This document shows positions 6,476 to 57,617 of a stretch of DNA of 58,893 bases, one piece after another. The notes under the pieces are model-generated. The model saw only the letters and a program-made list of their open reading frames with translations. It was not told the DNA's origin and did not search any database. The position numbers were made by a program, and so were the translations under genes. The DNA comes from a virus: positions 1-58,893 of the IMG/VR virus record IMGVR_UViG_3300042691_031426, one strand, 5' to 3'. Each line of letters begins with the position of its first letter. Within the stretch, counting starts at the first letter, position 1.

Positions 6476-6750
6476 GTGTCGTTGCGATACCCAGGTCGAT
6501 CAGATGCTCGCGGGAAGTTGGCTGTGCCGGGAGCACGCCGCAGCCGCTGGTCGTCGCGGAATGCTGGCAGTTGAGCGTTGCTGGCACGCCGCGGCCCACC
6601 ATCGCCCTTGCGCCATACGCCGACGTCCTTGCCGCGGCGGTACTCAGCGACCGACACGCCGAGGCGAGCCGCCTCCTCTTCCTCAGAGTAGGCCGCCGCC
6701 TCCTCAAATACGTTCCGCAGCCGGCGGATGTTGTCCTCTCGCTCAGGCAT
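6472..6750 (-). CDS. Hypothetical protein with EDNIRRLR N-terminus, 92 aa
   Basis: The N-terminus EREDNIRRLR is almost the same as that of the DUF6321-like protein at 37898-38164, but the rest differs: an acidic helix (FEEAAAYSEEEEAARLG), then SVAEYRRGKD and a basic, proline-containing tail. It sits just downstream of the largest virion gene, overlapping it by 8 bases, and converges with the integrase with a 4-base overlap. The shared N-terminus may be a docking or targeting tag. Confidence 0.65.
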   Translation of the reverse strand: MPEREDNIRRLRNVFEEAAAYSEEEEAARLGVSVAEYRRGKDVGVWRKGDGGPRRASNAQLPAFRDDQRLRRAPGTANFPRASDRPGYRNDT

Positions 6751-9700: not shown

Positions 9701-10315
9701 CAGGGCTCGGCCGGCCTGCCCGGCAGCCTCCTCGGCCATGTCGTCTGCAAGCGTGCGTGGCGTGCTGCCGCGGAGAAACGTCGCCACTCCCGTGTTGGGT
9801 ACAGCCCCAGTCTCGGCGGCGCGGGCGGCGCGCAGCACCAGGTCGTCGCCGGCCGTGCCCATGAGCCCAGCCCTGGTTGCGGCCTTGGCTGCGGCCGTGC
9901 GAGCGCCTGTTCCCAGAACGGCGGTCAGGCCAAGCGACGCGTATGTCAGTGGGTCCAGCAGAATCTCTGCACCCAAGCCTCCGCTGAAGTTCGCCCAGTT
10001 GTCATCCTCACCTGCGAGGCCGTACTGCCTCAGAAGCTCGCGGCCCGTGACGCGATCCTCGCTTGTATCCCACAGGGCCGACACGGCCTTGCCAAGCCCG
10101 CCTGACAAGCCGCCGCGGACGACAGCCCCAGGGGTGTCAAGCAGCCACCCAATCGCAGAAAGGCCTGACGAGCCCTGGTTGGCCAGCTCGCGGAGGAGAG
10201 AGGTCTTCTCTTCCTCCGGCATCAGGTCCGCGAGGGTGCGGCGCTTACGTAGTGGCGCTATGCCAAACGGGTCAATGTCGTCATCGTAGATGTCGAACAG
10301 AGGGGACTGCGACAT
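6743..10315 (-). CDS. Large virion-associated (ejection-type) protein, 1190 aa
   Basis: This is the largest protein of the genome. Its N-terminal 180 residues contain LLDTPGAVVRGGLSGG, NWANFSGGLGAEILLDPLTY and several alanine-rich helices, an arrangement I know from very large phage internal or polyvalent-type proteins. The middle has long helices and arginine-rich stretches. Near residue 920 ERDILKRLVPFYSYTKGITP resembles the FVPFYxFTRxNxP element of the same group. There is no tape-measure repeat. At the end of the virion block it most likely is an injected inner-core protein. The product of 36018-36794 looks like a truncated copy of its N-terminal part. Confidence 0.75.
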   Translation of the reverse strand: MSQSPLFDIYDDDIDPFGIAPLRKRRTLADLMPEEEKTSLLRELANQGSSGLSAIGWLLDTPGAVVRGGLSGGLGKAVSALWDTSEDRVTGRELLRQYGLAGEDDNWANFSGGLGAEILLDPLTYASLGLTAVLGTGARTAAAKAATRAGLMGTAGDDLVLRAARAAETGAVPNTGVATFLRGSTPRTLADDMAEEAAGQAGRALDDTALRVSAEDTARREALDAARRAFNQAGGTDELWESPLTRSNALRFPGLVDDAFDMYGSTVGDYLARGSDWLGTNLRATPVIGPVLRTAQAMFDGRVKQFTDEPGQMFGRKVTRAEQLAERAANSRIAAADVAFQRDLEAIQPGLGRSAEVADAFGNLMENQLDQIPDELLQMFDNVPGARRVRQLADDFTRESIANAERLGIPLERLTPPNDIDYFFRQRVEPARPRYARGFEGTKPIPLKDTAVASLGGASTAGRRDYTLAFPRWVLNKMYQDPDLAKQLRNVTANDQAERVLKDWLSTNASDFAPIARGEDAYDYMLSRKGVRYEGDKLLAAEMRRQEAYIDLADSIRRAPLQYSTEQLPRYGNSLNDLYTAIRNTSRREAVADTLLDELAGNAINRHIDMVPGGNAYSPADALGTLGFVSRADENAIPSGVQALASRMGVDPEELLTNYSFPRDLVDRMNTRLVTARAPAEATGLLKVIDDYTQRFKSLALLWPARYNRDMYSGGFAGLTQGAFNPLDAYAAVQAKGGNYAPLARRLSSAPGYGADELFPTGMRPSAEQLAEARVRKFLSDSGAEGLTSGGVSDDLGRQASNLTYRETFPGGAGPIFQGMGGRIRRSPVPWNLGSLRTSEGNANWLLELGDRAAEGSDAFNRIGTYLTRVRKGDAPAAAKAVADLTQINYRPEAFTAFERDILKRLVPFYSYTKGITPLVAQELLTNPSGLMGQSIRTINRLTEPSENRFTPEYLRQSAAIPIDPSFPLLGVDTPGISRVLTNIDLPHEGLLNLFTPGTGNTLTGRLIDTLTKTGQNILGQTNPLLKAPLELATNRQFYSGRQLSDLYSLAEQYDLPGGRLLDQIVFNAPGGSRVVGAARQLMDQRIGPQERAAKFLFNALTGMKVQDVDQERTARLAARTTLNQLLDQAKGMSTYENLFIKPEELAKLSPQEKRQYLLYRILQSEAAKKARERKKAAEDPMAILGVTNA

Positions 10316-16185: not shown

Positions 16186-17133
16186 TCATATCCACCGAAC
16201 GTCAACGATGGTGCTGTTTCCGCTGCGTTCCAGCTGGCATTGGTCGTTGAGTCTGTATTCCGGAATTTCCACAAACCCAGCAATCGGCGCCCGCGGGTCA
16301 GGCGGCGGGAATCGCGGGTCTTGCCCAGGCCTGCCGTCCCGGCCATTGCGGCCATCTCTCCCAGGAGGGCCTGGGATTGGCGGCGGCCAGAAAACGCCAA
16401 CACCTCCAGGAGGAACTTCAGGGCTTACGCCTGCTGGCCCTGCAGGCCCAACACCGCCAGGCGACCCGGCCGGGCCTGGGGCCCCGTCGCGCCCGTCGCC
16501 TCCGTTTAGGCCGCCCAACCCAGCTTCGCCGCTAGAACCAGAAAGCCCTGCGGCACCAGGCGCACCGGCGGGGCCTGCTGAACCGACTGAGCCAGCCGTT
16601 CCGGGCGCGGGGAAGTTGTTAATAGTGGTTGCATTGACATTGTTAGCGGTGACCGTGTTGTGCTGCGAGTTGTCAATGTAGGTGTTTCCGCCTATATGGA
16701 ACGTCGGCCCACCGAACGTGTTAAAGGTGCCGAACTCCTGCGATAACGGAAAGTTAAATTGGTCGCCAAGGTAGGTGTGCTGATGCCAATCGCCAAGGTT
16801 CATGCCAGGTATCTCAACAACCCCCGCGTCCCTTCCTGGAGGGCCCTGAATCTCGCGGATCTCACTTGGGCCCGGAAGGATTGGGCGGACGGGGCCCGGG
16901 TCCCACGGCGGTGCGCCAGGCGCACCGGGGATGTATCCTCCGCCAAAGCCGGCGCCGTACACGCCGTTGCGCTGAGGCTTGGCCATGCCGGGCTCAATTG
17001 TGACTGGCCCGCGGTGGACGATTGGCTGCGCGCAGTTGCCAAACGTCTGCATCAATGACTGCAGCATCTGCGGCGTCATCTGGCTGCCTGCCGAGCGCGC
17101 TAGGGCCGGCATGTTTTGCGTGTTGAATCCCAT
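16186..17133 (-). CDS. Collagen-like virion protein, 315 aa
   Basis: After an N-terminal part with Gly/Pro-rich GGGYIPGAPGAPPWDPGPV and a histidine-containing segment (GDWHQHTYLGDQFN), residues about 175-240 are a run of Gly-X-Y triplets (GPAGAPGAAGLSG, DGRDGAPGPAG, GPAGPAG), and a second run follows near 265 (PGPPGRDGRNGRDGRPG). Collagen-like segments of this kind trimerise in phage fibres and spikes. The final 40 residues look globular. It lies directly downstream of the repeat-rich hub gene. Confidence 0.75.
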   Translation of the reverse strand: MGFNTQNMPALARSAGSQMTPQMLQSLMQTFGNCAQPIVHRGPVTIEPGMAKPQRNGVYGAGFGGGYIPGAPGAPPWDPGPVRPILPGPSEIREIQGPPGRDAGVVEIPGMNLGDWHQHTYLGDQFNFPLSQEFGTFNTFGGPTFHIGGNTYIDNSQHNTVTANNVNATTINNFPAPGTAGSVGSAGPAGAPGAAGLSGSSGEAGLGGLNGGDGRDGAPGPAGSPGGVGPAGPAGVSPEVPPGGVGVFWPPPIPGPPGRDGRNGRDGRPGQDPRFPPPDPRAPIAGFVEIPEYRLNDQCQLERSGNSTIVDVRWI

Positions 17134-20100
17134 TAGCCAACACCGTCAATGGATATGCCCCGCACCACCACCGGCTCGCTCGCCGTGCCTGACAGCATTG
17201 CAGCCATGTGCCTGTCGCCTCCGGACGACTGCGGGTCAGGCTGTCGTCCTGAGTAGCTTGCCCTAGCCACTCCGCTGGCCTGCCCAAGAGAAGATCGCGT
17301 GAGCTTCATGTTAAGCGTCGCCCCGCCGCCTGAAGACGCCACAAACCCGCCGCCGCGGTCGCTGGCGATGGCGTTCGGCCGGGGCGTGGGCGAGTTGTTG
17401 TACGACAGATCCAGCGACAGCGAGGAGTCGTTGGTTGTCGGCTTGTAAAGCACCGTAATGCTGCGACTTCCGCCATCGGACGAAAGCGGCAATTCCGGGG
17501 ACCGATAGGAGTACGGGATGCTGGCACCGCTGTCCGACGAACCGGACTGCTTGAGAATGGTGCCCGCAGAGGTCCCGTATAGCGGGGTATTGCGTCCGGA
17601 GAGTTCAGCGCAACATCCAGCCGTAACGGCCGTCGTAAACGTCTCCTCCCACCATGCTTTGGTAGCTACGCAGTAGCACAACGCCCTTCGCGTTCCGGTG
17701 TCGCCGGCCTGGCGGTAGAAAAATCGCACCACACGTGCGCCAGCGTCTACCTGCACGTGGAACGTATCGGCGGCGCTGAAGTCGATGACGCCGTCCCGCC
17801 AGTAGTTGTCGATTGGCACGGAGACTGGCTCTTCGCTCTGGCCGTCGTAGGCGTACATGCCGTATGAGTCAACCATGAACGCGGAGCCGCCGAGCACGCC
17901 CCAGCACCGACTGTTCAAAATACCGCGGTACGCTCCAAGTACGACGGCGGCGTCCACTGCCGGCTGCGCGACGTAGCTCAGGCGGTACAAGTGCGACGTC
18001 TGCACCAACAGGAGCGACGGTCCAAGTGGGACCAGTGCGGCCAGTTTGTCCGGCTCCCCCGTGTTCTCTTGGATGATCATCTCGTTCTCTGGCGGAACCG
18101 ATTCCGGCTCGTCGATCTCAGAAAACAGCAGTGCGTTGGGCCGCACGCCAGTGCTGTCCACGCCGTACCATGCGCGGTCCTGGAACATGCAGGCCACTTG
18201 AAACTCGCCGGGAGGAACCGCAAACCGCCTGGCGTTGAGCTGCCCGGACGGCAGCGTGACTGGCATCAGGCCGTAGCCATCACGGGACGGGCTGGACAGC
18301 AGGCCGTCCGACAGGGCGTCCACGTACGGCGTGAGCCCGGCGATTGGCAGCGTCGCCACGCGGAACAAGATCACAGACTGGTCCGCCGTCGTCCGCCACA
18401 GCTCCACTCGCGTGGCCCGTGAGTCGGCATGGGTGGTGTCAATGGTCCACGTAATCGAACCGCCTCCAGACGCGACGGTAACCTCCGAGAGGTCAGAGAT
18501 TGACGAAGGCACCGGCCCTCCGCGGTCCGGCGGCGTATCGTCCAGGTAGCGAAAGCAGCAGCGGTACTTTCCGCGGATCATGGGCCGCATGGTCGCAGAG
18601 GCTCTCGCAGTGGTGTCCATGATGGTCGCTGTAGGCGGCGTTGAGTACGCCCCTCCCGCGAGCACGGTGACGCCAGTGACTCTCCCGGTGGAGTCCACGC
18701 TGCATGTGAGCGCTGCGCCGCCGCCCGTGGCGTCCTGTTTGGCAGGAAGGACGCTAATGATGGGTGGAGTCATGTAGCCGACTCCGCTATTGGCTACCGT
18801 GACGCCGGACACAGAAAAGAACTGGTCCACATCAAACAGGCGAACGGCGTCGGCACCACGGAGCGACAAGGTTACGCCATCCTGCGTGCATCCAGTACCG
18901 GCAGAAGTGACGACGACGCCCTCAAGGTTTGTTGTGGCGGACACCACAATGCGAGCATACTGCGAGGTGAGCCCGTTTGTGTTGTGCCACTGGAGGACAG
19001 ATCCTGTGGAAGCGCCGCTAAAGGTATAAGCGGTTGCAGACGCTGAGTGAGCCGGCGAGCCTCCACTGAAGGTTACGGAAGGGCTTGCTGTATACCCACT
19101 GCCGGCATGCGTGATCAGCACCGCGCCAACGCGAGTGTCCGTGCTGGCCGTGCCAGACGCGCCCGTTCCACCTCCGCCGGAGAACGACACGGAAGGCGCG
19201 CCTGTGTACCCGCTGCCACCGGAAACCATGTACACGGTCCCAACCGCCGTGCCTGCGAGGTCGCACGTGGCTGCAGCTCCAGTGCCGCCGCCGCCGGAGA
19301 ACGACACTGTAGGGGCAGTGCTGTACCCAGTGCCTCCGCTTACACTGACGCCGGCCACAACATTGTACAAAACTGCTTCCGCCTGCGCTCCAGTGCCGCC
19401 GCCTCCGGAGATAGATACGGTGGGGGTTGCGGCATAGCCCTGACCTCCAGTGGCGACCCGCGCGGATGCAATCTGGCCGGCACCGTTGCTGATGACGCGC
19501 ACCCTGGCGATTCCGCCAGCAACATTAACCGTGAATGCCGCCGATGTGCCGATGCCAGAGGAGAACGATACGGAAGGGGTTGATTGGTACCCATCGCCAG
19601 GGTCCGAAATGCGGACGGTGGCAACTCTCCCGTTAACAATCTCCGCAGCCGCAGCCGCGGAGACGGTGGGCGACCCCCCCGTGAACACAACGCTTGGCGG
19701 ATTGTTGTAGCCAGCGCCGCCGTTGATGAGCTGGATGCCGCCTACATGGAAGAGCGATGAGCTGCTCTGCGTCAGCACTGGGCCGACGCACGGAGGATGG
19801 ATGCCAATGGGCTGCGCGGTCGTACCGCCATTCCACCGTAGGCCCCGCCCCATGCCGTCCACGCCGTATGAATCCCCGTTCCGGCCGCGGAAGAACGTCA
19901 GGTACTTCTGCCCGCTCTGGACATAGGCAGTTGCTGCAGCTCCAGTGCCGCCGCCGCCGGAGAACGCCATCGTAGGAGCGGAGGTGAACCCAGACCCCTG
20001 AGACTTGATTTGCAAGCCCGCGACCTTGGTGCCTGCCATCACGGCAACGACAGTGGCGCCAGTACCGCCTCCACCTGAGACGGTTATTGAAGGCGGCGAA

Positions 20101-20174
20101 GAATAGCCAGATCCTCCGCTGGCGACGCTAACCTTTACAAGCCCGCCGGACGACCTGCTGTAGATAACACTCAC
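17133..20174 (-). CDS. Repeat-rich tail hub or stabilisation protein, 1013 aa
   Basis: The start is taken as GTG at 20174, overlapping the upstream stop as GTGA; sequence before it is antisense-like. About ten repeats of roughly 40-50 residues fill the first half, each with a core like GGSGYxxxPxVSFSGGGGTGA. The second half (from RGKYRCCFRYLDD) has strand-rich segments such as ATRVELWRTTAD, GFRVATL-type strands and SHLYRLSYV, as expected of a beta-propeller hub in podovirus tail complexes. The GGGGTGA repeat is a known element of environmental phage structural proteins. The neighbouring 20171-20437 product looks like the N-terminal domain usually fused to it. Confidence 0.7.
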   Translation of the reverse strand: MSVIYSRSSGGLVKVSVASGGSGYSSPPSITVSGGGGTGATVVAVMAGTKVAGLQIKSQGSGFTSAPTMAFSGGGGTGAAATAYVQSGQKYLTFFRGRNGDSYGVDGMGRGLRWNGGTTAQPIGIHPPCVGPVLTQSSSSLFHVGGIQLINGGAGYNNPPSVVFTGGSPTVSAAAAAEIVNGRVATVRISDPGDGYQSTPSVSFSSGIGTSAAFTVNVAGGIARVRVISNGAGQIASARVATGGQGYAATPTVSISGGGGTGAQAEAVLYNVVAGVSVSGGTGYSTAPTVSFSGGGGTGAAATCDLAGTAVGTVYMVSGGSGYTGAPSVSFSGGGGTGASGTASTDTRVGAVLITHAGSGYTASPSVTFSGGSPAHSASATAYTFSGASTGSVLQWHNTNGLTSQYARIVVSATTNLEGVVVTSAGTGCTQDGVTLSLRGADAVRLFDVDQFFSVSGVTVANSGVGYMTPPIISVLPAKQDATGGGAALTCSVDSTGRVTGVTVLAGGAYSTPPTATIMDTTARASATMRPMIRGKYRCCFRYLDDTPPDRGGPVPSSISDLSEVTVASGGGSITWTIDTTHADSRATRVELWRTTADQSVILFRVATLPIAGLTPYVDALSDGLLSSPSRDGYGLMPVTLPSGQLNARRFAVPPGEFQVACMFQDRAWYGVDSTGVRPNALLFSEIDEPESVPPENEMIIQENTGEPDKLAALVPLGPSLLLVQTSHLYRLSYVAQPAVDAAVVLGAYRGILNSRCWGVLGGSAFMVDSYGMYAYDGQSEEPVSVPIDNYWRDGVIDFSAADTFHVQVDAGARVVRFFYRQAGDTGTRRALCYCVATKAWWEETFTTAVTAGCCAELSGRNTPLYGTSAGTILKQSGSSDSGASIPYSYRSPELPLSSDGGSRSITVLYKPTTNDSSLSLDLSYNNSPTPRPNAIASDRGGGFVASSGGGATLNMKLTRSSLGQASGVARASYSGRQPDPQSSGGDRHMAAMLSGTASEPVVVRGISIDGVG
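18590..20165 (-). repeat. About ten coding GGGGTGA-type repeats
   Basis: Within the hub gene, tandem units of about 40-50 codons share a GSGY - xxPxV - FSGGGGTGA core. The best-conserved units are at the start and in the middle; units 3, 4, 8 and 9 are degenerate (for example TGGSPTV in place of GGGGTG). One 60-residue insertion follows the second unit. The repeats are protein modules, not short DNA repeats. Confidence 0.75.
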
Positions 20175-20437
20175 TGAGGCCCCCTTGCCACCCTTACGGT
20201 GCCGTCGGCAGATTGATACAGGACGCTCTCGCTGGCCCCAGGGACTCTCATCATCCTCACCACGCCCGCAGTGCCACCTGTGTGAGAAGCAAACGAGACG
20301 GCGGCCGTGCCCGGACGAAGGGCAATCTGGCCTGGTGCAATCACCTGCAGGTTGACCTGGGTAACCGCAGCGCCCGGCGGTATGGCGTACGGGCTGGCGT
20401 TGGTGACGAGCCCGGCCCACTTTTCAATGACGATCAT
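20171..20437 (-). CDS. Small virion protein, N-terminal-domain-like, 88 aa
   Basis: The start at 20437 overlaps the upstream stop (ATGA). The protein begins MIVIEKWAGLVTNASPYAIP and continues with PGAAVTQVNLQVIAPGQ. This VTNASPY/ALPPGAA pattern is known to me as the N-terminus of podovirus hub-type proteins that continue into propeller or GGGGTGA repeats. Here it ends with a stop that overlaps the GTG of the repeat gene, so one protein seems to be split in two coupled genes. Confidence 0.65.
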   Translation of the reverse strand: MIVIEKWAGLVTNASPYAIPPGAAVTQVNLQVIAPGQIALRPGTAAVSFASHTGGTAGVVRMMRVPGASESVLYQSADGTVRVARGPQ

Positions 20438-29235: not shown

Positions 29236-29734
29236 GCACTCCAGGCAGGGCTTGGACTGTAATGGTCCGCAGGGTTGCGGCCGTTTCGATCAAACGCTGG
29301 CGAAGCTCATCCTCAAGCTCATCCTCGCTCCACATGGCCAGCGGCTTCTTGGCGCCACCAAGCGCGGTGTTGTTCGTCACCAGGCGGACGATGGTGTCAA
29401 GTTGCTTGGTGCGAAAACTTCCGCCTGGCGGGCTGTCGTAGTACTGCTTCATGAACAGGTTGGCGAACCCCCTGGTTCCACCCATGTACTCCAGCATCGT
29501 CTCCAGAAGCTCGGCGCTGTGCGGGATATTCCCGCCGCCCGTCTTCGCGACGGTGCAGAACAGATCGACGGCGTCGCGTTCGATCTTGTCCAGGCGGTCA
29601 TCCTTGGCCTTCTTTCGACGCTTCCTCTCATAGGACGCCCGGCAGGTCTTGCACTTGGGGTGACGCTGCCCGTTCGACGCCAGGTGGAAGTCGTCGTCTG
29701 GCAGCTGCTTCTTGCACTTGGTGCAGGCTCTCAT
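29198..29734 (-). CDS. Zinc-ribbon protein, candidate small terminase subunit
   Basis: The N-terminus carries two CxxC pairs (CTKCKK and CKTC) about 23 residues apart, a typical zinc ribbon, followed by a very basic helix (SYERKRRKKAKDDRLDKIER). The middle and C-terminal parts are helical with an acidic stretch (WSEDELEDELRQRLIE). Position directly upstream of, and overlapping, terL is where small terminase genes are usually found, and DNA binding by the zinc ribbon and basic helix would fit. Sequence alone does not prove this role. Confidence 0.6.
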   Translation of the reverse strand: MRACTKCKKQLPDDDFHLASNGQRHPKCKTCRASYERKRRKKAKDDRLDKIERDAVDLFCTVAKTGGGNIPHSAELLETMLEYMGGTRGFANLFMKQYYDSPPGGSFRTKQLDTIVRLVTNNTALGGAKKPLAMWSEDELEDELRQRLIETAATLRTITVQALPGVHEEAPARDTEPA

Positions 29735-31152
29735 GTCTTCGCCAGGGCCGCGGTGATCTTCCAGACATTGCCTTCCACCGCCACAAACGTCCCCGTCTCG
29801 TTGACGGCCTTGGCCACTCCAGGGAACACGTTGTAGTCATGCCCGGCAATGATGTGCGTGGCGAGCGGCTGCCACAGGCTGATGTCCTTCTTGACAGCTT
29901 CGTACGTGTGCTCGGCGTCGATGTAGACGATGTCAAACTTCATGCCGACCTCGGTGTAGTGCTTCGCCGCCTCTTCCGAGCTGCCGCCGTAGAACTTGAT
30001 CATCCCGGCGTCGCGGTAGGCCCCCGTGTTCTCCAGGAACGTCCGGTATGCCCTTGCCTCGCTGACTCCGGCCGTGCCTTGGTCATGCTCGTTGCCCTTC
30101 CAGTGGTCCACGCAATACACGGTGGCTCCAGCGTCCGCCATTATGATTGCAGACCTGCCGGCCCAGGAGCCGACCTCTGCCACCACCGGGTACCGATGAT
30201 GGCGGGCATGGAAGTCCTTGATCATGTTGACGAGCGCGTCGGCATCCTGCTGGGGAAGGGCCATTCCAAGATCGTCAAATGGCTTCTTCACCTTGTCCAG
30301 CCACGTGGGCGCCTCAAGGTTGCAGAGCTTCACGCCGGACTCATAGCCGCCCTCCCAGCAGCTCTTGAGCTTCGCAGACACGCCTGCGGCGTCGATGACC
30401 TGGGGCTTGCCGACGCACTTGGGCTTCCAGTGGCCTGCCCACGCATCCCAGTTGCAATACACCGGGTTGTAACCCAGCTTCTGCGTGCCGACGAGAGACA
30501 GGTCCCGCGTCATGGTGACGTCCTCGGTGGACGCCTTCTCGGCACAGAAGTGGTCCTTCCATTCGTAATAGAACCAGGGCTTGTCGTCGGATGACTTTGG
30601 CGCCGTCAGGTCAAACGCCCGCATGTCGTACATGATCAAGCCTGTAGGCAACGCAGCACATTCTTGGATGCCGGCCATCTTCACGGCGGTATGGCGGTCG
30701 TACATCTCAAGCTGGAAGTCCGGGCCTGGATTCAGGCTCTGCATGTTCGTCCAGCGAAACACGTACACGCACTCAACGGGAGGAGGTCCGCAGTAGGGGG
30801 CGCCAATCACGCATGGGCCCTTGGAGTAGTGGCTGACGAAGAAGTCGAAGCTCGTCTTGAAAAACGGCTTGGCGTCCGGGGCGTCGGCATGAATGTCCGG
30901 GTGCATGTCGGAGTCGATCATCACCAGGCAGTCAACGCCAAACTCGCGGGCCATCACAACGGCCCTGTTGCGGGTCATGGTGATGGGCGTGTCCGCCAGA
31001 TTCCAGACGCGGATGTTGTCTACGCGAGGGTCCTTGGAGAGTTCCGCGACGAGAGGAACCATCCACTCTCGGATGTTGGGCACCTCAGAGGATATGCCGC
31101 CGTTGCCGCCATAGGAGAACGTGACAAAACCGACGTTGAACTTCTGTTGCAT
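29731..31152 (-). CDS. Glycosyltransferase-methyltransferase fusion protein, 473 aa
   Basis: The N-terminal half is a GT-A-type glycosyltransferase: NVGFVTFSYGGNGG, a helix with RNRAVVMAREFG, and the metal site MIDSDMHP (DxD at 80-82), then a sugar-binding-like region with WFYYEWKDHFCAEK. The C-terminal half is a class I SAM-dependent methyltransferase: VAEVGSWAGRSA (324-335, glycine-rich loop), VYCVDHW (345-351, acidic ribose site), FDIVYIDAEHTYEAV (406-420) and GHDY (437-440). It lies between a disordered virion protein gene and the terminase genes. It could modify virion or cell-surface sugars or proteins. Confidence 0.82.
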   Translation of the reverse strand: MQQKFNVGFVTFSYGGNGGISSEVPNIREWMVPLVAELSKDPRVDNIRVWNLADTPITMTRNRAVVMAREFGVDCLVMIDSDMHPDIHADAPDAKPFFKTSFDFFVSHYSKGPCVIGAPYCGPPPVECVYVFRWTNMQSLNPGPDFQLEMYDRHTAVKMAGIQECAALPTGLIMYDMRAFDLTAPKSSDDKPWFYYEWKDHFCAEKASTEDVTMTRDLSLVGTQKLGYNPVYCNWDAWAGHWKPKCVGKPQVIDAAGVSAKLKSCWEGGYESGVKLCNLEAPTWLDKVKKPFDDLGMALPQQDADALVNMIKDFHARHHRYPVVAEVGSWAGRSAIIMADAGATVYCVDHWKGNEHDQGTAGVSEARAYRTFLENTGAYRDAGMIKFYGGSSEEAAKHYTEVGMKFDIVYIDAEHTYEAVKKDISLWQPLATHIIAGHDYNVFPGVAKAVNETGTFVAVEGNVWKITAALAKT

Positions 31153-37560: not shown

Positions 37561-37898
37561 ACTTCACACAGGTCAAACTGGTTGCTCTGGTCGTCCCGCT
37601 GGCAGTCGTCATACAGAAGCATTTCGCACGTGGCAAAGCTCGTTGCGGCCTTGTAGCAGGCGCCGGCGTCGTTTAGCGTGTCCTTGCAGACGCCATCGCA
37701 GCACCTGGCCGCTTGGCCAGGCGGTGGAACGCAGTCGCCGTCCGTGACGCACTCCTCGCAAGGTCCGGCCTGGCACGCGCCGTTGCAGCAGTACTGGCCC
37801 TCTTGGCAGCATGTCCCGGATGCGCCACCGCAGCAGCACTTCCCCTGTCCTCCTTCTCCACAATCAGTGTTACCGCAGCAGCACTTACAGCACGCCAT
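37548..37898 (-). CDS. Cysteine-rich protein, 116 aa with 25 Cys
   Basis: With the start at ATG 37898 there are 25 cysteines in 116 residues, beginning MACCKCCCGNTDCGEGGQG and continuing with many paired CC and C-x-x-C steps (CCQEGQYCCNGAC, CCDGVCKDT). Repeats of the form CC - xxG - xC suggest a small knotted or metal-binding protein. No signal peptide or membrane span is seen. It overlaps both neighbours, by 13 bases and by 1. Such proteins are rare in phages; a role in metal storage, capsid cross-linking or mimicry of a host cysteine-rich wall protein is only speculation. Confidence 0.65.
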   Translation of the reverse strand: MACCKCCCGNTDCGEGGQGKCCCGGASGTCCQEGQYCCNGACQAGPCEECVTDGDCVPPPGQAARCCDGVCKDTLNDAGACYKAATSFATCEMLLYDDCQRDDQSNQFDLCEVCPP

Positions 37899-38164
37899 TA
37901 GCAGTTCCATGCCCGCCGGGCCTTGCGGAGCCGGCTGTTAGGGTCTTTGGCGGCCTCTGGCCACATCTTCATCTGGCCAGCACTCCGGGCGCAGAAAGAG
38001 TCCCTGCGAGGACCGCCTTCCGGTTGTGGGGGCTTGAGGTTTCCGCCAGTCTCGCGGTTGTAAGACGCACGCCCCTTGGCGTTCAGCCCGCCGTCAGGGT
38101 CCTGGCCTTCCTCCCTGGTCCATGCAGGTGAGCGGAGCCGGCGGATGTTGTCTTCAGAGGCCAT
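37898..38164 (-). CDS. DUF6321-like phage protein, 88 aa
   Basis: It contains GRASYNRETGGNLKPPQPEG, then PRRDSFCARSAGQMKMWPEA and a C-terminus with DPNSRLRKARRAWNC. This G(R)xSYxRETGGNLKPP ... SFCARxxGM ... RLRxALRxWNC pattern is the one known from the DUF6321 family of phage proteins, whose function is unknown. The N-terminus EDNIRRLR is shared with the 6472-6750 product. The ATG overlaps the stop of the 16-residue ORF upstream. Confidence 0.75.
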   Translation of the reverse strand: MASEDNIRRLRSPAWTREEGQDPDGGLNAKGRASYNRETGGNLKPPQPEGGPRRDSFCARSAGQMKMWPEAAKDPNSRLRKARRAWNC

Positions 38165-51616: not shown

Positions 51617-51677
51617 GGTTGTGTTCGCCATGATCGTTGGGGTTCTGATCTTCTTTGGCACAACACCGAGGCACTGA
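51603..51677 (+). CDS. Membrane peptide, 24 aa, GTG start
   Basis: A GTG at 51603 within the end of the previous gene opens 24 codons with one hydrophobic segment (VVFAMIVGVLIFFG). Its TGA overlaps the ATG of the recombinase gene as TGATG. The same small-span layout is seen at 49384 and 490. The start is not certain. Confidence 0.45.
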   Translation: MIHPEVVFAMIVGVLIFFGTTPRH

Positions 51678-52444
51678 TGAGCAAGGTCTGGGGTTATGTA
51701 CGGGTCAGCACTGACGACCAGGAGAACTCTGCCCAGAACCAGGTGGAGATGATCAAGGAGCGGGCGGCCAAGGAGGGCCTGCCCCTCGCCCACATCTACG
51801 TGGACGAGGACGTCACCGGGAAGATCCCGCTCCGCAACCGCCCGCAGGGCCGGCTGCTGTGGGACGCTATGGAGCCCGGCGACCTGCTGTTCTTCTTCCG
51901 CGTGGACCGCACGTTCCGGTCAGTGCGTGACGCTACCGACACGGTCCATACCTGGCTGGACAAGGGCATCAGCCCCGTGATCTTGGACCTGGGGATCGAC
52001 CTGCGGACGCCTGCCGGCCGCCTGTTTTTCCACCAGCTCGCCTCTTTCGCTGAGTTTGAGAGGGAGATGATTGGCCAGCGGGTACGTGAGGTCCAGTCTT
52101 ATTTAAGGAAGCACGGGCTGCCACGCGGGAACCGCCCTTACGGCTGGCAGCGTGACCGTCCTGGCAAGGGGGCGAAGTTCGTCCCGCTTGAGTCCGAGCG
52201 TCAACTGGCTGAGCGGATCGTTCGGATGCACGCGGACGGGACGCCTTACTCCCGGATTGCTTGGGCACTGATGCGGGAGAGGGTGACGAAGCCTGGGAAG
52301 AAGTGGACCGACGCCGGGAAGGGCGTGTGGTATTCGACGTCCGAGATCCACGGGCTGGCCACTGCTCATGCTCAGGGATTCCCAATCGTCCCGCGACGTC
52401 ACGTGCGAGTCGGCGGGACGCAAGACTTGCCGAGCGAATGTTGA
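51677..52444 (+). CDS. Serine recombinase (resolvase/invertase family), 255 aa
   Basis: The N-terminal catalytic domain has GYVRVST with the nucleophilic serine near residue 12, FFFRVDRTFRS with a conserved Arg, and LGIDLRTPAGRLFFHQLASF AEFERE-type sequence with the E-helix (VREVQSYLRKHGLPRG). A short C-terminal DNA-binding part follows (PYGWQRDRPGKGAKFVP, RIVRMHADGTPYSRIAWALM). The length is between that of small resolvases and large serine integrases. The last 475 bases run over the antisense sigma-like gene. It might invert or excise DNA, or resolve dimers. Confidence 0.88.
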   Translation: MSKVWGYVRVSTDDQENSAQNQVEMIKERAAKEGLPLAHIYVDEDVTGKIPLRNRPQGRLLWDAMEPGDLLFFFRVDRTFRSVRDATDTVHTWLDKGISPVILDLGIDLRTPAGRLFFHQLASFAEFEREMIGQRVREVQSYLRKHGLPRGNRPYGWQRDRPGKGAKFVPLESERQLAERIVRMHADGTPYSRIAWALMRERVTKPGKKWTDAGKGVWYSTSEIHGLATAHAQGFPIVPRRHVRVGGTQDLPSEC

Positions 52445-52883
52445 GCGAGAACTGCTCGCTCATGTCAACGATCCTGGCCTTGTCGATGAACCGGGCCTCC
52501 GCCATTTCCCGGTCTCTCTCCGGCATACCTGAGATTGCCTCGCCAAGGTAGTCCAGTTCGTCTGTAACGCCCGTTGCGGCCTCAGCCGCCTCCATCCCCA
52601 CCCTCTCGCCGGGAGCCCGCGTAAGCCTCCGTATGGCCTTGAGCATGGCATTCAGGATGGCACGGGCAAAGTACCGCTTGGGGTAGGGTAGGAGGGCCGG
52701 GTTGTAGGTGCGGGCAGCCCGGCACATTGCCAGGTATCCCTCGCCCTCAAGGTCCGGTATGAGCGCACCCCGCTGCCATGCCGGGCGGCTCTGGACGAAG
52801 TAGCGGGCCGCCGTTGCGACCAGGTCATAGTACTCAGTGACGAGCTGCTGCTGCCGCTTGGAGAGCTTGGATCGCTTGCTCAT
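51969..52883 (-). CDS. Sigma-70-like factor, with a doubtful antisense C-terminal extension
   Basis: Residues about 10-70 (QQQLVTEYYDLVATAARYFV, DLEGEGYLAMCRAARTYNPA, KRYFARAILNAMLKAIRRL) fit sigma region 2, and residues about 135-175 (FIDKARIVDMSEQFSLNIRS, ASLASRRLARDVAGRLGIPE) fit region 4. After about residue 180 the frame runs on for roughly 125 residues of arginine-, serine- and proline-rich sequence that is the antisense of the serine recombinase gene. The functional end is probably near 52340. It is likely a phage sigma factor that redirects host RNA polymerase, but this rests on pattern only. Confidence 0.6.
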   Translation of the reverse strand: MSKRSKLSKRQQQLVTEYYDLVATAARYFVQSRPAWQRGALIPDLEGEGYLAMCRAARTYNPALLPYPKRYFARAILNAMLKAIRRLTRAPGERVGMEAAEAATGVTDELDYLGEAISGMPERDREMAEARFIDKARIVDMSEQFSLNIRSASLASRRLARDVAGRLGIPEHEQWPARGSRTSNTTRPSRRRSTSSQASSPSPASVPKQSGSKASRPRASERSAQPVDARTQAGRTSPPCQDGHAASRKGGSRVAARASLNKTGPHVPAGQSSPSQTQRKRRAGGKTGGRQASAGRSPGPRSRG

Positions 52884-53034
52884 GGTGTTCCAGTCTGGCC
52901 TGAGTCTTACTCACAAACTCAGGCATTCCCTCCATGGCGGCAGCAATGAGCGCCACCTTGGCGTGGATCGACATGGCCCACGGGACCACGGCGATCAGGA
53001 CAGTCAATGCGATAACCATCTCGTCAGTACTCAT
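52834..53034 (-). CDS. Membrane protein with coiled-coil tail, 66 aa, holin-like
   Basis: One hydrophobic span near the N-terminus (MVIALTVLIAVVPWAMSI) is followed by an amphipathic, coiled-coil-like tail (SKTQARLEHHEQAIQALQ). Start taken at ATG 53034. The topology resembles small holins or spanin partners. It overlaps the sigma-like gene by 50 bases and lies among the protease genes, which supports a lysis role. Confidence 0.6.
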   Translation of the reverse strand: MSTDEMVIALTVLIAVVPWAMSIHAKVALIAAAMEGMPEFVSKTQARLEHHEQAIQALQAAAAARH

Positions 53035-53215
53035 CACTCACACCCTCCGCTATCAACTCCAACAATCCACCCGCCGCCTCGTCTGGCAGCTTGTCGTTCT
53101 TGCAGTCTGACATGATCCTGCGGACGGCGTCCGGCCACTCAGCAGGAAGAAACTGGTAGACCCACGCCTCGTCCTCAGAGTATGCCGTCAGCCTTATCAG
53201 CGTTTTGGTTTGCAC
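53024..53215 (-). CDS. Small hypothetical protein, 63 aa, GTG start
   Basis: A GTG at 53215 gives MQTKTLIRLTAYSEDEAWVY, then PAEWPDAVRRIMSDCKNDKL and LLELIAEGVSDEY. It overlaps the next zinc-knuckle gene by 19 bases. It is acidic and compact. No family is recognised. Confidence 0.55.
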   Translation of the reverse strand: MQTKTLIRLTAYSEDEAWVYQFLPAEWPDAVRRIMSDCKNDKLPDEAAGGLLELIAEGVSDEY

Positions 53216-53427
53216 TGCCCGTCTGGGCAGGCCTCCACTCGCTCCGTACATGGGCAGTTCGTCCAGTTTTGGTTGTCGCCGGTCCTTACCTTCCCAGTGC
53301 CCTTACATTGAGGGCAGTTCGGCAGCGGGGGCTTGGGGGTTGGCTTGGCTTCTTCCATCTGGGCGATGATCGCAGCCTGCGTGGCGATGATGGCGATGTA
53401 ATCAGGCGTGTTGTCGTCCCAAAACAT
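53197..53427 (-). CDS. DnaJ-type zinc-knuckle protein, 76 aa
   Basis: After a short helical N-terminus (PDYIAIIATQAAIIAQMEEA) there is CPQCKGTGKV and a second pair, NCPCTERVEACPDGQC, as in DnaJ-like zinc regions. The start at 53427 overlaps the stop of the papain-like gene (ATGA). It resembles the 46709-46888 product and may have a similar small zinc-scaffold role. Confidence 0.65.
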   Translation of the reverse strand: MFWDDNTPDYIAIIATQAAIIAQMEEAKPTPKPPLPNCPQCKGTGKVRTGDNQNWTNCPCTERVEACPDGQCKPKR

Positions 53428-54377
53428 CAGATCCTCCCTATGGTGCCCAGGTCTGGGAGCGTGTTGGGAGGGAACCCCTGAACGTCTGAGTACGCCCACA
53501 TGTCCTCGCCCTCCACGCACGCGGCGTACCCGGCGTCGTCGGTGACGATCATGCCTGGGATCTGCGGCGGGTAGTCTGCCGGCCAGTTGGGCACTGGCGT
53601 GTTCCACGCCGCCCAGCTGTTGGCTATGAACCACACGCGGAACGGCCAGAAGGTGTGGGTGTCGTCATAACCAACCGTAGCCATATCATGGGCCCAGCCC
53701 GGCGAGCTACGCGGGTGAATGTTCTTGCTGCCCGGCTTGTTCGACCACGCCGCCATCTGGCCAGAGTGGATGCCGTACCCATTGAACAGGGCGTCCATCG
53801 CATCGTCCATGGTCTTGACCAGGGCGATAGACCCAACCTTGTTGCGATTGCACAGCGACTGTACCGCTGGCGGTACACCGCCGTTCCTGCCCCACCTGGT
53901 TCCGATCTGGCCGTCGTAATTTGTCAGGTCAACGACGCCAGGGAAGTGATCCCGCGCGAGGAAGCCGACGTCACGCTCAAAGCGGCTGGCCCTGGCCGGC
54001 GACATGCCCTCACCGCCGTGGCCCCTCGCTCCGTAGGTTGGCTCAGTCGCGGTCCTCTTGAACCAGGAGAACGGCTCGCCCTTCACCAGCAGCGACACGG
54101 CCCTGGTGCAGTCCCGTGCGTTCCGGCTTCCATGGGAAACACAATCTCCAACGGTTTGTCTTTCCGTGAAGGCACGCGGGTCCAGCTTTAGCACGTACCC
54201 CCAGAGCATGGCACGCTTGCCCTTGCCTGACCCAGGCGAAGAGAAGAACCGCACCGGGTTCGTCGCCAGGAACTCTTCCTTGTCTCGCGGCGAGGCGATG
54301 TACCCTGCGAATCCGCCGGCCTCGTACGCCCTGACAAGCTCTGCCGAGCTGTTGAACAGGTCCTCATCTTGCGGCAT
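53427..54377 (-). CDS. Papain-like cysteine peptidase, 316 aa
   Basis: The start at 54377 follows GGGAGG. The catalytic region has the papain pattern: an oxyanion Gln and the catalytic Cys in RQTVGDCVSHG (Q74, C79), the His in WAHDMATVGYDD (H230), and the Asn in IANSWAAW (N253). Between them are ARDCTRAVSLLV, TYGARGHGGEGMSPARASRF and a Trp-rich region. No signal peptide is obvious. Similar peptidases are annotated as phage structural proteins. With the subtilisin-like gene nearby it may cut wall or host proteins. Confidence 0.75.
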   Translation of the reverse strand: MPQDEDLFNSSAELVRAYEAGGFAGYIASPRDKEEFLATNPVRFFSSPGSGKGKRAMLWGYVLKLDPRAFTERQTVGDCVSHGSRNARDCTRAVSLLVKGEPFSWFKRTATEPTYGARGHGGEGMSPARASRFERDVGFLARDHFPGVVDLTNYDGQIGTRWGRNGGVPPAVQSLCNRNKVGSIALVKTMDDAMDALFNGYGIHSGQMAAWSNKPGSKNIHPRSSPGWAHDMATVGYDDTHTFWPFRVWFIANSWAAWNTPVPNWPADYPPQIPGMIVTDDAGYAACVEGEDMWAYSDVQGFPPNTLPDLGTIGRI

Positions 54378-54864
54378 CGGCAACCTCCCCAAGGGCCGCA
54401 GCGAGTGCCGCCTTCTTGTCCGCCGTCATGGCCACATCGTCCTTGCCGATGGCCTTGATGAGCACCTCTTCGATGGCTGCGTCCAGGCCGGGGTACTTGC
54501 CTGGAAGGTCCGTTCCCTTGAAGGCCAGGTCCAGTGCGTTGGCATTTGCCTGACGCCACCGACCTACCGTTGTGATCACCCCGGTATCCCTGTGAATCAC
54601 ATCGCCCATTGCGGCGTAGTACGCACGGACCCTGGCCCTGTCCTGCTTGCTGGCAGACTGCAGGATGGTGGCAATCTTGCCTCGCTCTACCGGGGCAATG
54701 ACGGTCTTCTGCGGAATGAACGCGACCACCAGGGCGACGGCGGCAACGACTGCCAGCACGTGCTTGAAAAACACGGCGGGGGTCAGCTCTTTGATCATCG
54801 GCCACGCGTACACAAGGGCCACAAGCGCCGCCACGCCCAACGCCGCCATCTGATAGGGGGTCAT
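54364..54864 (-). CDS. Membrane-anchored hypothetical protein, holin/spanin candidate, 166 aa
   Basis: Two hydrophobic spans lie near the N-terminus (MAALGVAALVALVYAW, then VFFKHVLAVVAAVALVVAFI), followed by a long soluble part with helices (GKIATILQSASKQDRARVRA, LDAAIEEVLIKAIGKDD). Two spans and a soluble tail fit a holin or an anchored accessory. It lies between the papain-like gene and the subtilisin-like gene, with 14- and 4-base overlaps. Confidence 0.6.
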   Translation of the reverse strand: MTPYQMAALGVAALVALVYAWPMIKELTPAVFFKHVLAVVAAVALVVAFIPQKTVIAPVERGKIATILQSASKQDRARVRAYYAAMGDVIHRDTGVITTVGRWRQANANALDLAFKGTDLPGKYPGLDAAIEEVLIKAIGKDDVAMTADKKAALAAALGEVADAAR

Positions 54865-55748
54865 ACAAGCACCTTGCTGCTTTCCTCTAGGATGCTGGAT
54901 GGACTGATAAGCCCCCAGCCGTACAGGTGGTCATGGCCAGGGTCGCCGGCATCCACGCTGGTGTTCTTCAGGACCGCCCTGGCCTTCGACCCGTCGCGTG
55001 GAGTCGGCATCTGCGGCCACGCCAACGCCAGGACGCCGGCCACAAACGGCGCAGCCATGCTGGTGCCAGACAGCGTCGCATATCCACCACCAAGCCAGCA
55101 GGATGTGATCTCCTCGCCCGGCGCAGCGACGTCAATCTCACGGCCTCGGCAAGAGAACTCGCATACCCCTCCGTGGCGGCCGACAGCGCCAACGGCAATG
55201 GTCTGGTCAAATGCAGCAGGGTAGCTGACCTTGCCGCCGTCATTGCCAGCGGCGCACACCATGATCACCCCAGCATCGTTTGCCGCCTGAACGGCTTCCG
55301 CGATGTAGGGTGTTCGGATGGGGGCCCCAAGGCTCATCACCAGGATGTTGCATCCCGCCTCAACGGCGTAGGCAATCGCCTTGCCAACGGCCTCCAGCGA
55401 CCCTGAGCCGTTGTTGTTCAGCACCTTGCAGCTGATGATCTCCACCCGCGGGGCGACTCCAGTCATCGGACCGCGGGCGGCAATGATGCCGGCTACGTGT
55501 GTTCCGTGGCCGTTGGTGTCCGACGCCGAGCAGTCCCGGGTGAAGTTGCGGTGCTCCTTCACCACGCCCTGGAGGGCAGGATGACTGTCGTCTACCCCAG
55601 TATCAAGCACGCCCACCCGCACGCCGGCCCCCTGGTGACGACTCCAGAGGGCCGGCAACCCGTACGCGGATATTGACCAGTCCAGGCCAGAGGAGGGCAA
55701 GGCCTGTGCGACTGCTTCCACGCGGTACGGGGGCAGGTGAACAATCAT
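54861..55748 (-). CDS. Subtilisin-like serine protease (S8), 295 aa
   Basis: All three catalytic residues of the S8 family are present: D49 in GVLDTGVDDSHP, H81 in NGHGTHVAG, and S230 in SGTSMAAPFVAG, with the oxyanion Asn at about 169 (AGNDGG). The fold order is normal. There is no long pro-domain; about 40 residues precede the catalytic core and no signal peptide is obvious. The start at 55748 overlaps the stop of the upstream holin-like gene (TGATG). A phage-encoded S8 protease is unusual and, next to membrane proteins, may take part in lysis or in virion or host protein processing. Confidence 0.88.
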   Translation of the reverse strand: MIVHLPPYRVEAVAQALPSSGLDWSISAYGLPALWSRHQGAGVRVGVLDTGVDDSHPALQGVVKEHRNFTRDCSASDTNGHGTHVAGIIAARGPMTGVAPRVEIISCKVLNNNGSGSLEAVGKAIAYAVEAGCNILVMSLGAPIRTPYIAEAVQAANDAGVIMVCAAGNDGGKVSYPAAFDQTIAVGAVGRHGGVCEFSCRGREIDVAAPGEEITSCWLGGGYATLSGTSMAAPFVAGVLALAWPQMPTPRDGSKARAVLKNTSVDAGDPGHDHLYGWGLISPSSILEESSKVLV

Positions 55749-56068
55749 CACTCATCCCTGGACACAAGGACACGGATGAGTGATGTGACGATTGGCGCCA
55801 CCACGTTCAACAGGATCGGCAGGGCGATCCCAAGGCTCTGGATCTTGGCAAGATCCTCCTGGGCCTCGGCCTCCGTGATTTCCTGGGCCTGGGCCTGGAA
55901 TAACGGGAAGGTTTCGATGATTGGCAGCAGGGCCTTGGCCACCTGGTAAACGATCTCCAGCTTCTCCGACAGGCCGGCGTCGCTCCAGCGGGCGACGATG
56001 GTGCTGATCTCTCGGAGGACGCTGACGTTCTGCAGGAGCCACCGTACGACGACAAACTTATCTAGCAT
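55748..56068 (-). CDS. Holin-like membrane protein, 106 aa
   Basis: The start at 56068 lies behind GGAGGAAG. An N-terminal helix (MLDKFVVVRWLLQNVSVLRE) and an amphipathic middle precede a hydrophobic C-terminal span (GIALPILLNVVAPIVTSLIR). A holin would need such a membrane helix. Its TGA overlaps the protease start, so the two are translated together. Confidence 0.6.
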   Translation of the reverse strand: MLDKFVVVRWLLQNVSVLREISTIVARWSDAGLSEKLEIVYQVAKALLPIIETFPLFQAQAQEITEAEAQEDLAKIQSLGIALPILLNVVAPIVTSLIRVLVSRDE

Positions 56069-56357
56069 TCTTCCTCCGTTCGCAGGCGATTGCGACAATG
56101 GCGTGACCCGCAATGTCCATGAGGGTCTTCTGTCTAGTAATTGTCTCCAGAGGCCCCCTTAGCCGACGAGATTTCTCACCGATGCGGGCCGCCTGGTAAA
56201 GCCACGGTTCGATGCCTTCCCGCTCCACGCCAAGGGCGTTCTCCAGGGGGTCTTCGCCGCACCCGTAGTAGTTCCGCTTCCTGGTAAGCAGCAGGTACAG
56301 CTCGTCGCACAGGTCCCGGTACGGGTCACCAATGGACGTCTCGGCTGGCTCCGACAA
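56058..56357 (-). CDS. DUF1599 (nucleotide modification associated) protein
   Basis: The conserved part contains DPYRDLCDELYLLLTRKRNY, GEDPLENALGVEREGIEPWL, then AARIGEKSRRLRGP and LMDIAGHAIVAIACERR. This matches DUF1599, thought to act in nucleotide modification or hydrolysis. The start is unsure: I place it at a TTG (56357), and sequence further up overlaps the next gene in another frame and is proline-rich. It may shape the dNTP pool or DNA modification. It overlaps the holin-like gene by 11 bases. Confidence 0.65.
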   Translation of the reverse strand: MSEPAETSIGDPYRDLCDELYLLLTRKRNYYGCGEDPLENALGVEREGIEPWLYQAARIGEKSRRLRGPLETITRQKTLMDIAGHAIVAIACERRKNAR

Positions 56358-56664
56358 TTCGCCCGTACTCTGCCCAGAAGGAGGCTGTGTGGGGGTCCTC
56401 GTCGTCGGTACACAGGTAGGCGGTTCTAGCGTGTGCCCATTCTTCACAAAGCGTGTCAATGAAGCAGTCGGCGGTACATGTGTTGGCAATGCAGATGACC
56501 CCACGGTTTTCCTCCTCGTTAAACTCAAAGTACCCCAGCATGTCCGGCATCTTCGCCGGGTGTTTCAGGTAGCACCTCAGCGGGAACGGCACCGGGAACT
56601 TGGCCTGGGCCCACCTCCGGAAACGCTTGAGAAGCAGCCTCCGCCAGTCTGAGTGCGAACTCAT
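56326..56664 (-). CDS. Degenerate metallopeptidase-like protein, 112 aa
   Basis: After a basic N-terminus (RRLLLKRFRRWAQAKFPV) there is PDMLGYFEFNEEENRGVICI and FIDTLCEEWAHARTAYLCTD, followed by ASFWAEYGRIVGAS. Phage proteins with a DTLxHEWAHA motif resemble zincin metallopeptidases; here the first His is Glu (EEWAH), so the activity is probably lost or altered. It overlaps the upstream and downstream genes in other frames. Confidence 0.6.
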   Translation of the reverse strand: MSSHSDWRRLLLKRFRRWAQAKFPVPFPLRCYLKHPAKMPDMLGYFEFNEEENRGVICIANTCTADCFIDTLCEEWAHARTAYLCTDDEDPHTASFWAEYGRIVGASRDVHW

Positions 56665-56959
56665 AAACCCGCTCCAGCGGTAGGGTCACAAGCCATGGCG
56701 CCCGGCTCTTGCGGTGCAGAACCACCGGCACCTTGCCTGAGGCATCCTCAATGGCCTGCTTCACCCACGCCCTGACGGCCTCCTTCTCAACGAACTTCAC
56801 TTCCCAGTGGATTCCAGGGATGTCTACCTGGATGTCGGCCGACGACGGCCCCCCTTGGTATTGCACTCCGCGGCGGGAGCGCACTCCGAAAGCGACCGAC
56901 ACCGCTTTTGCGGCCTCACGCTCGCCCCTCTTGCCCTTGTTTCTCTGGGATCGGCTCAT
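56525..56959 (-). CDS. Hjc-like Holliday junction resolvase / PD-(D/E)XK nuclease
   Basis: The start at 56959 overlaps the previous stop (ATGA). It starts SRSQRNKGKRGEREAAKAVS and has GGPSSADIQVDIPGIHWEVK, where E (REREAA), D (SADI) and E-x-K (WEVK) fit the active site of Hjc-type resolvases. Helix VRAWVKQAIEDASGKVPVVL follows. The last 45 or so residues overlap another gene and are probably a stop-free extension. It likely resolves branched DNA before packaging. Confidence 0.7.
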   Translation of the reverse strand: MSRSQRNKGKRGEREAAKAVSVAFGVRSRRGVQYQGGPSSADIQVDIPGIHWEVKFVEKEAVRAWVKQAIEDASGKVPVVLHRKSRAPWLVTLPLERVYEFALRLAEAASQAFPEVGPGQVPGAVPAEVLPETPGEDAGHAGVL

Positions 56960-57219
56960 ACCAGCTTCACAAACAGAGGGCCGTTGGGGCCTACGTAAGC
57001 ACCCAGGGTATTGAAGCTCAGGTACTCGTCGGCCTCCTCGTCTGTCATGCCGTCGTCCATGAGGATCTGACGGCACTTGTCCATGTCATACACAGCAACC
57101 ACCGGGTGGTGATGGTTCTGTGTGTAGCCGATGTATGCCTCGGCCAGGCCGTCAGCCAGAAGGGCTTCCGGGTTTTCATTCGACAACTCATCCATGAGAT
57201 CGTTCCTGATGGCAATCAT
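56956..57219 (-). CDS. Conserved small phage protein, 87 aa
   Basis: It contains LMDELSNENPEALLADGLAE, AYIGYTQNHHHPVVAVYDMD, KCRQILMDDGMTDEEADEYL and FNTLGAYVGPNGPLFV. The DGMTxEEAxEYLxFNTLGAYVGxxxPxFV pattern is a known small phage family without assigned function. It overlaps both neighbours by 4 bases. Confidence 0.75.
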   Translation of the reverse strand: MIAIRNDLMDELSNENPEALLADGLAEAYIGYTQNHHHPVVAVYDMDKCRQILMDDGMTDEEADEYLSFNTLGAYVGPNGPLFVKLV

Positions 57220-57617
57220 GGCTTCCTGCTCCAGCTCAGGTTCGCCTCGCGTTCGTTGATGTAAAACGCGTCAGGCTCTTGTGGCTCGTAACCCAGGTGC
57301 TTCTTCATCCGTAAAGAAGCCAGGTACGCCGGGTCATAGTTATCCGGATCAGACTGCTGCTTGGCCCAAAGAACTGCACTTTTGTTCAGGTCCGGAATAC
57401 TACCAGCGACGCCGCCTGAATGCAAAACGCGGTGGCAGCGGTCGCAGAGCCGGAGGTAATTTCGATAGTCATGCTTTCGTCCTGCGCCGCCCTGAAGGTG
57501 ATGGACCTCCAGCCTCCTGCGGCCATCGCTCTCCGGCCACCAGCACACCGCACAGCATCGGTGCAGCTGCACCCACTCGCCGCACTCGCGTCGCTCCTTG
57601 GCTGTCATCCGTGCCAT
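57216..57617 (-). CDS. HNH endonuclease, 133 aa
   Basis: A classical zinc-containing HNH site: CAVCWWPESDGRRRLEVHHL, then GGAGRKHDYRNYLRLCDRCH and RVLH, with the two CxxC pairs and the H-N-H residues in order. The N-terminus is basic (RMTAKERRECGEWVQLHRC). It may nick DNA during packaging or recombination, or act as a selfish element. It faces a non-coding stretch of 300 bases upstream. Confidence 0.85.
   Translation of the reverse strand: MARMTAKERRECGEWVQLHRCCAVCWWPESDGRRRLEVHHLQGGAGRKHDYRNYLRLCDRCHRVLHSGGVAGSIPDLNKSAVLWAKQQSDPDNYDPAYLASLRMKKHLGYEPQEPDAFYINEREANLSWSRKP

Follow-up and report, generated by a model that had tools for sequence, protein, structure and literature searches.

A conserved cassette of protease and membrane-protein genes as a candidate lysis module of Planctomycetota-linked phages

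In holin-endolysin(-spanin) cassettes, and in the Mu-like lysis genes located upstream of the terminase gene, small membrane proteins are coupled to one soluble or N-terminally anchored hydrolase. The same layout, with a similar position in prophages, is seen in a gene cassette of the 58,893-base virus record IMGVR_UViG_3300042691_031426 (the window, i.e., the whole stretch of DNA that was analyzed; coordinates are window positions unless a related contig is named). However, the hydrolase of this cassette is of the protease type, and it is accompanied by no recognizable peptidoglycan hydrolase, holin, or spanin. Cysteine peptidases that serve as lysins against an unusual wall are exemplified by PeiW and PeiP, the pseudomurein endoisopeptidases of archaeal viruses; they differ from the papain-like peptidase of the cassette in both the peptidase family and the wall.

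The papain-like peptidase shares with the members of the C1A family (xylellain, cathepsins, SERA5, and bleomycin hydrolase) the Gln-Cys-His-Asn order of catalytic residues, and these proteins provide its best PDB fold matches. It differs from them in having a Gln-to-Cys spacing of 5, no match among the Pfam or PHROG families, and no relatives in the 50,697 deposited phages searched. The second protease of the cassette, a subtilisin, has its best PDB matches among the intracellular subtilisins (ISPs), calcium-activated homodimers such as those of Bacillus and Planococcus, with alignments that extend through the inhibitory prosegment; as in ISPs, no signal peptide is seen. ISPs are cytoplasmic and carry the prosegment motif [LVI]-[IFLV]-P-[YFH] (LIPY/F) (PMC6220982), whereas the window subtilisin has LPPY, is phage-borne, and is encoded between membrane protein genes. 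The subtilisins of phrog_3677, found in Bacillus, Moorella, and other phages, contain the same S8 domain (37 to 42% identity in the Bacillus and Moorella phages), but these phages lack the papain cassette, since the search of deposited phage records yielded no relative of papain.

Organization and components of the cassette

The window encodes a P22/SU10-type portal protein and the large terminase subunit TerL, which indicates a tailed, podovirus-like phage. The cassette and its neighbors comprise the following genes:

51969..52883, minus strand: Sigma-70 region 2 protein (Pfam), downstream end of the syntenic block
52834..53034, minus strand: memC, 66 aa, one N-terminal hydrophobic segment and a coil-like tail; in 12/12 relatives
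53024..53251, minus strand: small protein within the cassette, 75 aa, conserved in relatives
53197..53427, minus strand: DnaJ CXXCXGXG zinc-finger-like protein, 76 aa (Pfam PF00684, E 2e-6)
53427..54377, minus strand: papain-like (C1A-type) cysteine peptidase, 316 aa; Q74, C79, H230, N253; xylellain fold match
54364..54864, minus strand: memB, two predicted N-terminal membrane helices and a helical domain (KYPGLD motif); directly upstream of the papain-like gene
54861..55748, minus strand: subtilisin-like protease (S8), 295 aa; D49, H81, S230; without signal peptide; N-terminal HLPPYRV
55748..56068, minus strand: memA, 106 aa, C-terminal hydrophobic segment ILLNVVAPIVTSLIRVLV; in 10/12 long relatives
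56058..56357, minus strand: 99-aa protein immediately upstream of memA, conserved in relatives
56326..56664, minus strand: conserved 112-aa protein; SprT-like match below threshold only
56525..56959, minus strand: RusA-like/PDDEXK nuclease, upstream neighbor (Pfam, PHROGs)
57216..57617, minus strand: HNH endonuclease, upstream neighbor (Pfam, PHROGs)

The cassette reading frames delineated in the initial annotation are open and code-like. The minus strand carries the genes for the two proteases, memA, memB, and memC, the ends of which mostly overlap or abut; the ATG of the papain-like gene overlaps the memB stop codon by 14 nt and lies downstream of the sequence GGGGAGG. About 20 IMG/VR contigs, with protein identities as low as ∼50%, retain the gene order HNH, RusA-like, 56326, 56058, memA, subtilisin, memB, papain, memC, sigma, which is more than expected by chance; the cassette is real and conserved. 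Promoter and terminator matches in the cassette region were at chance level only. At the downstream end of the block, the sigma-70 region 2 gene lies antisense to a serine recombinase gene (51677-52444, plus strand), with an overlap of hundreds of bases, and both genes are present in 12/12 relatives. Elsewhere in the window, two small proteins (6472-6750 and 37898-38164) share the N-terminal motif EDNIRRLR, and a 473-aa core gene close to TerL (29731-31152) combines a C-terminal methyltransferase domain with an N terminus that appears, by eye, glycosyltransferase-like.

The 316-aa papain-like protein (54377-53430) does contain the catalytic residues initially proposed for it (Q74, C79, H230, and N253), and its relatives conserve them. 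In 80 unique ORFs, Q74 and C79 were each found in 79/79 sequences, His230 in 80/80, and Asn253 in 76/80, with Gln in the other four; this conservation implies an active enzyme. An AlphaFold model of moderate quality (pTM 0.75, pLDDT 67) gave xylellain (3ois) as the top Foldseek match (E 2.7e-5, probability 1.00), followed by cathepsins, with TM scores of 0.41 to 0.47, and a profile of very divergent members matched almost exclusively C1A chains in PDB, albeit weakly (E 0.004 to 0.7). The protein is thus a diverged C1A-type peptidase that is not assigned here to a named subfamily and, given these weak C1A matches and the lack of a Pfam or PHROG family, is referred to only as papain-like.

The subtilisin is complete, in agreement with the initial annotation: PF00082 covers the whole domain (E 1.2e-56), and the catalytic D49, H81, and S230 are conserved in the family. 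All complete family members have LPPY, in which the Pro in the second position departs from the strict ISP motif while the key Pro is retained. Judged from its sequence, the enzyme resembles the ISPs, with LPPY as a variant of the inhibitory LIPY motif, and is probably cytoplasmic and self-inhibited. In one related contig (L019), the subtilisin gene contains an in-frame intein-like insertion (around 7500-8720) with motifs resembling those of DOD homing endonucleases, located at the catalytic His site (GHG/THCAG); that subtilisin would stay inactive until splicing. In another (L018, around 1600-2350), a copy of the EDNIRRLR type is inserted between the subtilisin and memB genes.

Two of the membrane proteins had been described initially as having a holin-like layout, and a third (52834-53034) had been noted. 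All three are indeed present; memA has a single hydrophobic segment; memB, with its two predicted N-terminal membrane helices and helical domain of ∼100 aa (pLDDT 91), exceeds a minimal holin; and no holin profile from Pfam or PHROGs matched memA, memB, or memC above the cutoff. In 74 of the 80 unique loci, the papain-like gene follows memB in the same orientation, and in most cases ≤25 nt separate the two; the six exceptions include two loci cut near the papain-like gene. This pairing recurs in phages that are otherwise unrelated and in prophages of Planctomycetota. The predicted fold of memB has no match in PDB, and the idea that it is an inhibitor or prodomain of the peptidase was dropped, as this helical fold resembles nothing there. 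Some proteins with the memB domain carry signal peptides or PKD-like domains (L109 and L117).

Phyletic distribution and probable host

Relatives in group 1 (e.g., L009-L028) are 53 to 91% identical and share the whole HNH-to-sigma block. Group 2 (L109-L152; 38 to 49% identity) consists of different phages, with contigs of up to 230 kb, that keep the memB-papain pair amid other small membrane proteins, with no subtilisin in the stretches read. One group 2 protein (c7) weakly matches Phage_holin_6_1 (E 0.022). The proteins c17 and c32, like memC, display only the layout of a transmembrane segment plus a coil. A membrane protein of the transglycosylase-associated (GlsB/YeaQ) type, PF04226, is kept after the papain-like gene in group 2 loci (e.g., L122, 6724-6975, E 5e-8). 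An exported CxxCxGxG-type protein, akin to the 76-aa protein of the window, is often encoded 3′ of the papain-like gene in other phages. The subtilisin is confined to the phage lineage of the window and one Planctomycetota prophage (G700), whereas papain and memB form a widespread unit.

In genome collections, relatives are encoded on Planctomycetaceae and Pirellulales MAG contigs and on a single Synechococcaceae MAG contig. The papain family was found in 8 of the 343 sampled Planctomycetota genomes versus 1 of 292 from Cyanobacteria, the latter being that same 3.6-kb contig (L069), with a 72% identical copy. A cyanobacterial host, which would rest on this one small contig, was therefore rejected. 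The chromosomal Planctomycetota copies (L165, L166, L168, L170, and others) are found in prophage-like clusters with genes for portal, capsid, TerL, and S49/Clp-like proteases; in these clusters, the papain-like gene either has lysis-like small membrane protein genes on one side and TerL/portal on the other or separates the head genes from the tail genes. In 7 of the 8 chromosomal copies (six clear, L167 weaker), the papain domain is preceded by an N-terminal transmembrane-like stretch. In three of these clusters (L165, L166, and L168), an exported thioredoxin-like protein (WCPYC) is encoded 3′ of the papain-like gene; this protein and the CxxCxGxG protein together hint that thiol chemistry may accompany the cysteine protease.

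Relatives of the window portal protein are present in the Planctomycetota genomes G020 and G700. The G700 prophage also encodes homologous TerL, major capsid, and 1190-aa proteins and an LPPY subtilisin that shares 43% identity with the window enzyme. These data suggest that the lineage of the window infects a planctomycete. Papain and memB were not detected in the G700 prophage. A protein encoded beside its subtilisin (L187, 12013-12513) was considered as a clan CA cysteine peptidase because of its GDCW and HH motifs and was rejected, with no Pfam or PDB match and no homology to the papain-like peptidase by HMM; similarly, HMM comparison gave no support to a PKD-type protein as a memB counterpart. 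The protease genes of this prophage adjoin a gene for a di-haem cytochrome c peroxidase (L187, 13028-14059).

Planctomycete walls have been described as proteinaceous (PMC3422733), and planctomycetes have also been found to possess lysozyme-sensitive peptidoglycan that contains DAP (PMC4432640). The literature searched contained no study of phage exit from these bacteria.

Absence of recognizable murein hydrolases and the case for lysis

The initial annotation found no lysozyme, amidase, glucosaminidase, or transglycosylase in the window and proposed a profile search for hidden murein hydrolases. That search upheld the claim: Pfam analysis of all ∼92 ORFs revealed none of these enzymes and no peptidoglycan peptidase, and PHROG searches with 30 window proteins revealed no peptidoglycan hydrolase. 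The sole PHROG match with "lysozyme" in its name, phrog_1922 ("tail lysozyme") in a 1095-aa tail protein (17133-20420), was 1 of 13 matches and fell on beta/repeat sequence common to baseplate proteins, so it was not accepted as a lysozyme. The 1190-aa core protein (6743-10315) was likewise discarded as a possible hidden lysin, as a profile search against PDB gave nothing credible. The relatives showed the same picture. No peptidoglycan hydrolase family was found in 125 accessory ORFs drawn from 12 long relatives, in the 33 ORFs of the G700 prophage (Pfam), or, for the 60 ORFs of the Planctomycetota loci, among the best 25 of 31 Pfam families, the other six being single weak matches. Searches for Phage_lysozyme, SLT, and CHAP in the relative records (≤230 kb, possibly fragments) and for Amidase_2 in the group 2 records yielded nothing above the cutoff; the M15_4 matches and the one GH108 match in group 2 were partial, below the cutoff, and not accepted. 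This absence covers known families, and a novel peptidoglycan hydrolase may be encoded among the many unknown genes.

The cassette is best interpreted, with a probability only slightly better than even (about 0.5), as a lysis or envelope disruption cassette of Planctomycetota-linked phages, with the papain-like peptidase in the slot of an endolysin. The grounds for placing it in lysis are its core status, the close coupling of its genes, its occurrence on different phage backbones (as is typical of holin-endolysin pairs), its association with exported or membrane proteins, and the failure of the searches to reveal another lysin candidate. One of the two original readings, lysis through proteolysis of the envelope, is partly supported by the lack of recognizable peptidoglycan hydrolases in the window and its relatives, the coupling of a protease to membrane proteins, and the link to Planctomycetota, with their walls long described as proteinaceous. 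The two proteases are not equal partners, in view of their different distributions and the apparently cytoplasmic, self-inhibited nature of the subtilisin. Grouping of the cassette with the RusA/HNH genes, given the late timing expected of lysis, weighs against the lysis assignment, as do the lack of a recognized holin among the membrane proteins, the G700 prophage in which papain and memB were not detected, and the Synechococcaceae copy.

If the cassette does serve lysis, memA, memC, and possibly the first helices of memB would act late in infection to permeabilize or prime the inner membrane. The papain-like peptidase, a soluble protein, could then enter the periplasm, while most of the chromosomal prophage copies would be self-anchored at the N terminus, like an exported SAR-type enzyme. 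Aided by the membrane-anchored memB domain, the peptidase would cut an envelope substrate, which may be a structural protein or else the peptide moiety of peptidoglycan. The subtilisin would be a lineage-specific accessory, cytoplasmic and restrained by its LPPY prosegment, that might be freed upon cell collapse or a change in ion balance and digest cytoplasmic or membrane proteins. The stronger proposal, that lysis by Planctomycetota phages involves no murein hydrolase and depends instead on a papain-like protease that is released via membrane proteins and destroys an envelope protein, a protease-based class of dsDNA phage lysis, is doubtful. It also counts against the preferred interpretation that a phage would gain no obvious advantage from lacking a murein hydrolase, given that lysozyme attacks planctomycete peptidoglycan; the presence of this polymer means that the papain-like peptidase could itself be a peptidoglycan endopeptidase (PMC4432640).

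In that case, the peptidase would be a disguised endolysin that, like the CHAP and NlpC/P60 enzymes of the papain superfamily, cuts stem peptides, the cassette would be a standard holin-endolysin module built around an enzyme of a new family, and the claim that a peptidoglycan hydrolase is absent would be wrong. Its position and coupling fit this explanation as well as they fit the preferred one, planctomycete peptidoglycan exists and contains DAP (PMC4432640), and the viral fold neighbors of the peptidase include proteins annotated as peptidoglycan binding or lysin-like. However, with ∼300 aa, a catalytic order of Cys-His-Asn, and an accompanying Gln, the peptidase resembles C1A protein peptidases rather than CHAP or NlpC, and its PDB fold neighbors point the same way; along with the negative CHAP profile and no peptidoglycan-binding domain seen, these features make this explanation unlikely. 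Phage proteases commonly work in capsid maturation, and in several relatives the cassette genes adjoin head or tail genes, as might be expected if the proteases processed virion proteins for maturation or ejection. Such a role is improbable, given that the window cassette is far from the structural genes, that papain-bearing prophage clusters have separate S49/Clp-like protease genes, and that an exported or anchored memB and mostly membrane-anchored chromosomal papains would be odd for a capsid protease. A role in host takeover or superinfection exclusion, with the subtilisin digesting host cytoplasmic proteins and papain and memB remodeling the host surface during infection or lysogeny, would agree with the cytoplasmic location of ISP-like subtilisins (PMC6220982), the RusA/HNH neighborhood, and the persistence of chromosomal papain copies in Planctomycetota. 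It is nonetheless quite improbable for a cassette that is core in phages with no other lysin candidate and whose papain-like gene is surrounded by long runs of small membrane protein genes.

The lysis interpretation implies that these phages may burst their hosts by an undescribed route, using a conserved protease-for-lysin module that is represented by 80 or so distinct loci and yet by none in deposited phages. If the target is peptidoglycan, the papain-like peptidase would add a new enzyme family to the endolysins. If the target is a protein, phage lysis need not attack peptidoglycan, a conclusion that would be relevant to the long-standing debate about the nature of the planctomycete wall.
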